Made by a program: the position numbers and the translations under genes. A stretch of DNA of 64,000 nt from positions 62,001-126,000 of the forward strand of contig CALMYB010000019.1 in assembly GCA_937873515.1 (NCBI GenBank), given 5' to 3'. The DNA is from an uncultured Acidobacteriota bacterium (lineage in GTDB: Bacteria > Acidobacteriota > Blastocatellia > Pyrinomonadales > Pyrinomonadaceae). Of the stretch, positions 20,758-22,359 are shown in pieces; position 1 is the first letter of the stretch, and each line of letters starts with the position of its first letter. The notes under the pieces were generated by a model. It was not told the DNA's origin, ran no database searches, and worked only from the letters and a program-made list of their open reading frames with translations.

Positions 20758-22359
20758 ATGGCTTTGCAGCTAAGACGAAAGACGCACGAATCGATCGTGT
20801 ACATTGACAAGGATTCGGCGCCGCGGATAATGCCGAATGGCGAGGACTTTATCCTTGAGGATCTTCCGACGGGTACTCGGGTGATCTATCCGAATCCGCC
20901 GATCAAGGGGCTGCCGAACCGAGAGGCGGCGATCCGTTACGCGTTGAATCATCCGCTCGAGATGGAGCCGCTTTACGCGCTTCTCGAACCGGGAATGCGC
21001 GTGACGATCGCAATGGATGACATTTCGCTGCCATTGCCGCCGATGGCGACGCCGGATATGCGGCAAACGATGCTCGAGATCGTGCTCGATCTGTGTGCGG
21101 CGAACGGCGTCGATGACATTCACCTGATCATCGCGAACTCACTGCATCGCAAGATGACCGCGTGGGAAATGAAGCGTATGGTCGGCTCGAAGATCTACGA
21201 CGAATATTATCCCGACCGCTATTACAACCACGACGCAGAGGCCGACGACGAACTCGTTACGCTCGGCCACACGCGGCACAACGAACCGCTCCGCGTGAAT
21301 AAACGTGCGATCGAGAGCGATCTTCTGATCTACCTAAACATCAATCTTGTGCCGATGGACGGCGGGCATAAATCTGTCGCGGTCGGGTTGTGTGATTACG
21401 AAAGCCTGCGTGCTCATCACGAGCCGCAGACGATCCGCGATTCGCATTCGTACATGGACCCGCCGGCTTCGGAGCTGAATCACAAAGTCATTCGGCTCGG
21501 AAAGCTCGTCGATGAGAACTGCAAGGTCTTCCACGTCGAGACGGCGTTGAACAACAAGATGTTCTCGGACGGCTATGACATCTTGACGCGGAACGAGGAC
21601 GAATTCTCATTCATGGATCGGATGAAATGGGAGGCGATGGCGCGTACGTTCTCGAAGATGCCGCGTGGCGCACGGCGCAAGATGCTTCACGCAATTCCGG
21701 CTCAGTACGAACTGATCGGCTGCTACGCAGGCCGCACTGAACCGGTACACGAAAAGATTCTCGAATTGAATTACAGGCAATACGAAATTCCCGTGAAAGG
21801 GCAGTGCGACATATTGATCACGGGCATCCCGGACATCTCGCCGTACAACGTTTATTCGGCGCTGAATCCGCTGCTCGTGCAGGTGATGGCGCTCGGCTAT
21901 CATTTCAATATGTATCGGAACAAGCCGCTATTGCGTAAAGGCGGCGTGATGATCATCACGCATCCGTGCTTTGATGAGTTCGACCCTAAATTCCATCCCT
22001 CGTATATCGAGTTCTTTCATCGTCTGCTGCCGGAATCTCGTGATGCGTTCTATCTGCGAGAGAAATACGAACGCGAATTCGCCGAGAATCCGGCGTACAT
22101 CGAGATGTATCGCCGCGGAAACGCCTATCACGGAGCGCATCCGTTCTTTATGTGGTATTGGGGCGAGAACGGCCGTCAACACGTCGGCCACGTCATCGTT
22201 GCCGGCGCCGAGAACGCACACGTTCCCGAAATGCTCGGCTGGGAACGCGCCGATAACCTGACCGAGGCGATCGCAATGGCACGCTCATATATGGGCCGCA
22301 ACGCCGAGATCACAATGCTCCACCAGCCGATCATCGGATTGTGCAGCGTGACGGACTGA
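20758..22359 (+). CDS. LarA-like (lactate racemase/DUF2088 family) protein
   Basis: 533 residues. The DUF2088/LarA pattern is visible in [19 protein letters not shown] (substrate/cofactor loop), [17 protein letters not shown] (conserved His), [16 protein letters not shown] and [19 protein letters not shown]. True LarA uses a nickel-pincer cofactor to racemise lactate, and other family members act on other alpha-hydroxy acids. The protein is longer than LarA and the loops differ, so the substrate is unknown. None of the cofactor genes (larB, larC, larE) is nearby. The position suggests a role in the lipid-type cluster. The start follows the 105-bp repeats, with no strong ribosome site visible. 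Confidence 0.75.

Follow-up and report, generated by a model that had tools for sequence, protein, structure and literature searches.

A LarA Homologue in a Conserved elb-Type Cluster: A Candidate Nickel-Pincer Enzyme of Bacterial Ether-Lipid Synthesis

Introduction

What does a LarA-like protein do when its gene stands among lipid genes, with none of the genes for the LarA cofactor nearby? The question is raised by the gene at positions 20758-22359 of a 64,000-nucleotide stretch of DNA (the window) from an uncultured Acidobacteriota bacterium. An initial annotation of the window, made from the sequence alone, noted that larB, larC and larE, whose products make the nickel-pincer nucleotide (NPN) of LarA, were all absent from these 64 kb, and proposed that either the cofactor genes lie elsewhere or the fold serves another reaction. 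As detailed below, we consider it probable that the gene corresponds to elbC in an ether-lipid cluster of the elb type, and that its product would carry out an NPN-dependent hydride transfer on a glycerol-type intermediate of ether-lipid synthesis. Judged by its sequence, the protein appears to be an ordinary member of its family, in an unrecognized and widely conserved role.

How the elb pathway of aerobic bacteria forms the ether bond between alkyl chain and glycerol has been stated to be unknown (PMC9131029), and elb-type genes are used to guess the environmental sources of ether and membrane-spanning lipids (PMC11868695).

Results and Discussion

A LarA Fold with a Single Catalytic Histidine

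The open reading frame has exactly the bounds given above, starts with ATG and encodes a product of 533 amino acids. This product contains a Pfam Lar_N domain (PF09861; 127 bits against a cut-off of 23.3) and matches over its full length (residues 13-531) the NCBIfam family NF052592, titled "NPN-dependent hydroxyacid isomerase, LarAH14/15/16 family", with 808.3 bits (cut-off 740). An AlphaFold2 model built from 38 homologues had a mean predicted local distance difference test score (pLDDT) of 92, and its 12 top matches in the PDB were all LarA-family proteins (Z 42.3 to 23.9), the next entry being found at Z 6.0. The closest solved structure was 9q3k (Z 42.3, root-mean-square deviation 2.0 Å over 453 residues, 26% identity), followed by 9q3j (Z 38.9) and then by LarA proteins at Z 33-24, with Foldseek in agreement. 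Both 9q3k and 9q3j are single-His NPN enzymes. Domain, family and fold alike confirm the LarA-like (DUF2088-type) identity initially assigned to the protein.

Active-site residues were mapped by HMMER alignments to 9q2u and 2yjg, and their conservation was assessed in a 38-sequence alignment (A2) and in the homologues of our LarAH tree. The ribose-binding Asp, first catalytic His, NPN-tethering Lys and nickel-binding His of LarA (D72, H108, K184 and H200; PMC12611868, PMC7583248) have equivalents in D88, H130, K205 and H221, respectively. All four are invariant in A2, so that the cofactor Lys and His, whose loss would have spoken against a LarA-like protein, are both retained. Also invariant are Y363 and H461, matching Y307 and H401 of 9q2u, which are close to the unidentified ligand of that structure.

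The conserved His residues noted in the initial annotation are, however, only in part those of LarA, as the second catalytic His (H174) is missing. Neither of the aligned positions holds a His: the residue is N196 in the alignment to 2yjg and V198 in that to 9q2u (opposite N185), and the loop holding N185 in 9q2u is about 4 residues shorter in our protein. Nor is R75 of LarA, the residue for the phosphate and the substrate carboxylate, kept; L91 takes its place in the 2yjg alignment, and homologues have mostly Leu there, otherwise Ile, Val or Gln. The loss of H174 was already known for the family, since it is stated for groups 14 and 15 of the 2020 LarAH survey (PMC12611868).

Lacking both the second catalytic His and the carboxylate-binding Arg, the protein is probably not an α-hydroxyacid racemase. 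An NPN-dependent racemase or epimerase working on a 2-hydroxyacid, for example a 2-hydroxyacyl chain, would be in keeping with the LarA-family fold, the cofactor residues, the surrounding lipid genes and the very name of the NCBIfam family. We nonetheless regard it as quite improbable, given the Asn or Val at the second catalytic His and Leu91 at the position of R75; moreover, a two-base inversion of a stereocenter has been argued to be impossible for such proteins (PMC7583248, PMC12611868), and a Pfam scan of the cluster proteins revealed no gene for acyl-chain 2-hydroxylation. The early guess of a 2-hydroxy lipid chain as substrate thus found no support, the neighboring genes pointing instead to alkyl-glycerol ether lipids. 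The idea that the fold serves another reaction fared better: it is likely, given the loss of one catalytic His and of the carboxylate Arg, and another hydride reaction has indeed been suggested for such LarAH proteins (PMC7583248).

An elb-Type Gene Cluster

The elb operon of Myxococcus xanthus comprises elbA (encoding a short-chain dehydrogenase/reductase, SDR), elbB (a haloacid dehalogenase-type protein, HAD), elbC (of unknown function), elbD and elbE (a further SDR) (PMC9131029). In the window, an ElbB-like HAD, the full ElbD domain set and an ElbE-like SDR are found around the LarAH gene (Table 1), which lies, as initially described, amid a lipid-type cluster, between an HAD-IB hydrolase and a protein combining fatty acyl reductase (FAR), AMP ligase, acyl carrier protein (ACP) and acyltransferase domains. 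The latter protein carries all the motifs looked for (GGTGFVG, YTYSK, TSGTTGTPK, GFDSL, HESHID and FPEGT) and is, domain by domain, 40-50% identical to the Myxococcaceae protein at the same place. Similarly, the SDR is 44-47% identical to the Myxococcaceae SDR at the ElbE position, against 27-36% for that at the ElbA position. The gaps between genes 3' of the LarAH gene measure 26-84 bases.

We examined the conservation of this arrangement in three sets of relatives. Among 76 Myxococcaceae genomes (the family of G298, a metagenome-assembled genome of Archangium), 75 have a match to NF052592, which in 74 is over the cut-off. Twenty regions were hand-picked from these 75 genomes, mainly on long contigs; the order HAD-LarAH-ElbD-SDR was present in 19 of them, with an ElbA-type SDR additionally in front in 17 of the 20. 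Because this gene order matches the published M. xanthus elb operon, elbC very probably encodes a LarA homologue of the LarAH14/15/16 type. In Acidobacteriota, tblastn found HAD and FAR flanking LarAH in all 19 cluster regions, together with an acyl-CoA synthetase (ACS) domain in 16/19 and an SDR in 12/19, some regions ending early.

The third set consisted of the best 80 loci by similarity to one Acidobacteriota protein (L035), with one of two short peptide patterns required, so that counts from it are not unbiased frequencies. These loci belong to Actinobacteria, Planctomycetes, Chloroflexi, Zixibacteria, Poribacteria, Tectomicrobia, Proteobacteria/Myxococcota and Acidobacteria; most of them lie outside Acidobacteriota, and HAD and FAR flanks occur, among others, in Actinobacteria, Planctomycetes and Chloroflexi. 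Of the best 80 loci, 48 have flanks of 5 kb or more on each side; among these, HAD was found in 45, FAR in 43 and an acyltransferase in 43. Neither HAD nor FAR was detected at 12 of the best 80 loci, 8 of which have less than 2 kb upstream of the gene; the other four (L042 of Poribacteria, L043 of Zixibacteria, L044 and L045) have at least 2 kb upstream. At L044 and L045 a DAGK-type kinase adjoins the LarAH gene.

That an ordinary racemase happens to sit beside lipid genes is hardly credible in view of an HAD/FAR linkage that recurs across several phyla (19/19, 19/20 and 43-45/48 regions in the three sets). Control loci, namely the other LarA of the genome (L191), its counterpart in G283 (L192) and a distant, LarAH-like non-member of the family (L195), had no HAD, FAR, ACS, acyltransferase or SDR within ~9 kb, and a chance neighborhood was rejected on these grounds.

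In other phyla, the cluster shows variants (L059, L048, L066 and L044): FAR can be fused to HAD or to the acyltransferase, and a zinc alcohol dehydrogenase and a DAGK/YegS-type lipid kinase are present. In Actinomadura (L059), for instance, FAR and HAD form one protein. Over the best 80 loci, a match to a zinc-type alcohol dehydrogenase was obtained at 70 and one to a DAGK/YegS-type lipid kinase at 11. In Myxococcota, a LarAH14-16 copy can also occur with HAD and without ElbD (L110/L193 and L116/L194), and G298 holds two LarAH14-16 copies, the second of which (L151) is without cluster.

The DAGK-type kinase and zinc alcohol dehydrogenase seen as neighbors in other phyla would also suit an NPN-dependent C2 stereo-inversion or redox isomerization of a small glycerol compound (e.g., glycerol phosphate, or dihydroxyacetone phosphate/glyceraldehyde 3-phosphate), serving backbone supply rather than ether formation, and single-His LarAHs of the LarA_Sp type are described near triose-phosphate genes (PMC12611868). 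The cluster, however, holds nothing specific for free glycerol phosphate, and the single catalytic His speaks against an inversion, making this role very improbable in our estimate.

Table 1. Features in and beside the elb-type cluster of the window, and cofactor genes on other contigs of the same genome
Feature	Position	Strand	Evidence
HAD-IB family hydrolase, ElbB-like (phosphatase)	19218-19922	+	PF12710, 7e-33
IS200/REP-type transposase-like gene, between HAD and LarAH	20061-20546	+	PF01797, 1e-25
LarA homologue, LarAH14/15/16 family, ElbC-like	20758-22359	+	NF052592, AlphaFold2 model, structural match 9q3k
S-adenosylmethionine-dependent methyltransferase	22444-23202	+	PF13649, 7e-15
ElbD-like protein, 1491 aa: FAR, AMP ligase, ACP, PlsC-type acyltransferase	23229-27704	+	PF07993, PF00501, PF00550, PF01553
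SDR-family reductase, ElbE-like	27742-28776	+	PF01370
Short protein	28773-29306		PF21785 (5-fold beta-flower)
LarC	C1:10647-11783		491 bits, cut-off 22.1
LarB	C7:201201-201824		289 bits, cut-off 175
LarE	C10:221234-222007		306 bits, cut-off 150

A methyltransferase like that of the window occurs in just 2 of the 19 other Acidobacteriota cluster regions (L176 and L190), and we consider it probably accessory. The transposase-like gene probably plays no part in the pathway; a homologue is found at the same place in one of these 19 regions (L171 of G283, 80% identity). Upstream of the cluster, the window has no ElbA-type SDR; CoaD-like and aminotransferase genes are located there, on the opposite strand. 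The short protein past the SDR is made of repeat units of the form ~(S/R)RxT(I/V/L)GY...G.(I/V)E(N/D)AS.

As for the lipids themselves, Pyrinomonas, a species of Acidobacteria subdivision 4, makes iso-C15/C17 glyceryl ethers (PMC4644332), and elb homologues occur in subdivision-4 Acidobacteria (PMC11868695, PMC8788747). Clusters of the elbD type have been described in sponge Acidobacteriota and Poribacteria, with no LarA homologue named in the account given of them (PMC9426513). The LarAH family, its missing His, the Myxococcus elb cluster and the elb homologues of subdivision-4 Acidobacteria were therefore known before; the ether-lipid context of the LarAH14/15/16 family appears to be new within the literature searched. 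In that literature, supplements aside, we found no paper naming ElbC as a LarA homologue or placing an NPN enzyme in ether-lipid synthesis. Table S1 of PMC7583248, which gives neighbor genes per LarAH group, lay outside the search, and some of the neighbors described here may be found in it.

Cofactor Genes

The gene belongs to a genome of 3.56 Mb (97.5% complete) that also encodes a second Lar_N protein. Contig C19, which carries the window, gave no match to larB, larC or larE at E ≤ 0.001, in line with what had been reported for the 64 kb. This absence is merely local, because all three genes sit on three other contigs, with scores over their respective cut-offs (Table 1). Of the explanations offered initially, the one placing the cofactor genes elsewhere is hence correct, and an orphan LarA without cofactor genes was rejected.

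A physical linkage to larBCE in relatives, which had been named at the outset as a test of the initial reading, was found in some of them: by tblastn, LarC, LarB and LarE were near LarAH at 15, 14 and 13 of the best 80 loci, respectively, mostly in Actinomadura and other Actinobacteria. As regards co-occurrence, 67 of the 76 Myxococcaceae genomes have this LarAH as their only Lar_N protein, and LarC is present in all 67; the only genomes of the 76 in which LarC is missing are G302, where LarB is present, and G343, which lacks Lar_N proteins altogether. Among Acidobacteriota, both LarC and LarB were found in 22 of the 26 genomes with an NF052592 match over the cut-off, including 5/5 of those where LarAH is the only Lar_N protein.

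A Possible Role in Ether-Bond Formation

From the computed family, fold, residues and conserved cluster we infer cofactor use, substrate and reaction as follows. Lys205 would most likely carry NPN, the nickel being bound by His221, and His130 would act as the single conserved acid/base of the LarA type. In the synthesis of alkyl-ether lipids, the enzyme would move a hydride on an intermediate of the glycerol type; it would work with the fatty aldehyde that the reductase domain of ElbD makes, and alongside ElbE, the acyltransferase part of ElbD and the HAD phosphatase. An NPN enzyme that has a single acid/base His and lacks a carboxylate clamp is suited to transferring a hydride in one direction on a polyol.

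Data on M. xanthus provide some background to such a scheme. There, i15:0 aldehyde is present in the wild type and absent from elbD mutants, and fatty alcohols were not seen; inactivation of elbE reduces ether lipids, insertion into elbA has no effect, and the part played by the AGPS homologue is minor. The steps up to the alkyl ether were called unknown (all from PMC9131029). No AGPS-type domain was detected by Pfam among the cluster proteins of the window, no genome-wide AGPS search having been made.

A more specific version of the hydride transfer, which we infer and deem unlikely, would make ElbC (LarAH14-16) a nickel-pincer "hydride-borrowing" ether synthase, redox-neutral overall. The fatty aldehyde released by the ElbD reductase would form a hemiacetal with the C1-OH of glycerol (phosphate). 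NPN would then accept the hydride from glycerol C2 and, as water departs from the hemiacetal, pass it to the former aldehyde carbon; alkyl-dihydroxyacetone (phosphate) would result, and the net redox state would be unchanged. Reduction of the ketone would finally fall to ElbE or, in other phyla, to the zinc alcohol dehydrogenase, and the acyltransferase would complete the lipid. One catalytic His would be enough for such chemistry, and an AGPS-type enzyme would not be required.

Several observations weigh against the proposed NPN-dependent role of ElbC. The identity of ElbC, very probable as it is, comes from gene order in Myxococcaceae and not from the sequence of M. xanthus elbC, and the literature searched does not describe an elbC mutant. 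No activity is known, since Frankia LarAH14 showed none of the seven activities tested (PMC7583248). Furthermore, Desguin et al. judged their LarAH group 16 to be probably not NPN-using (PMC7583248). Lastly, within the genus to which the window belongs, four genomes (G141, G189, G227 and G283; 97-98% complete) have neither LarB nor LarC over the cut-off, LarE not having been searched there. They all keep an intact LarAH gene, its active-site residues, the cluster (L175, L174, L173 and L171) and a second Lar_N protein. The absence hardly reflects one assembly gap, because the genome of the window shows no linkage between larB and larC. By the LarAH tree, which sets G141 apart (it groups with G149/G173, support 0.966), it arose at least twice.

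These four congeners are what would favor a LarA fold working without NPN, whether it needs no cofactor at all, uses a different one, or serves the ether-lipid enzymes as a structural partner. Such a function is possible for them, and so is NPN scavenging; cofactor genes that escape recognition are also conceivable. However, the loss of LarB and LarC does not single out LarAH14-16, because the second Lar_N protein is kept in the same four genomes. Considering also the invariant tethering Lys and nickel His, and the presence of LarC in every Myxococcaceae genome where this LarAH is the sole Lar_N protein, we regard a role without NPN as unlikely.

If elbC does encode a nickel-pincer enzyme, the missing ether-bond catalyst gains a chemically plausible candidate, and larB, larC and larE turn into candidate ether-lipid genes. 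LarA homologues of unassigned substrate would likewise gain a testable pathway, and M. xanthus would be predicted to lose its ether lipids without larC.

Comparison with Known Systems

The closest relatives are the LarAH14/15/16 proteins, Frankia LarAH14 among them, to whose family our protein belongs by its full-length match; in the literature searched, this family is assigned no substrate and no lipid role. LarA_Sp (9q2u/9q3k) and LarA_Bw (9q3j) share with it the two-domain fold, one catalytic His, and the NPN Lys and His. They are, however, just 24-26% identical, their K76 is replaced by Leu/Pro and their H306 by Pro362, and their neighbors are carbohydrate genes (PMC12611868) as opposed to the lipid genes seen here. 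The LarA of L. plantarum (5huq/6c1w) and LarA_Ip (9eia) are alike in fold, Lar_N domain and the equivalents of D72, H108, K184 and H200, whereas H174 and R75 are lacking in our protein and the identity is 18-21%.

At the level of gene organization, the cluster differs from the M. xanthus elb operon by having no upstream ElbA-type SDR and by the added methyltransferase and transposase genes. The two nevertheless share the order HAD-?-FAR/ACS/ACP/acyltransferase-SDR, and the place of elbC is the one that LarAH occupies in those 19 Myxococcaceae regions.
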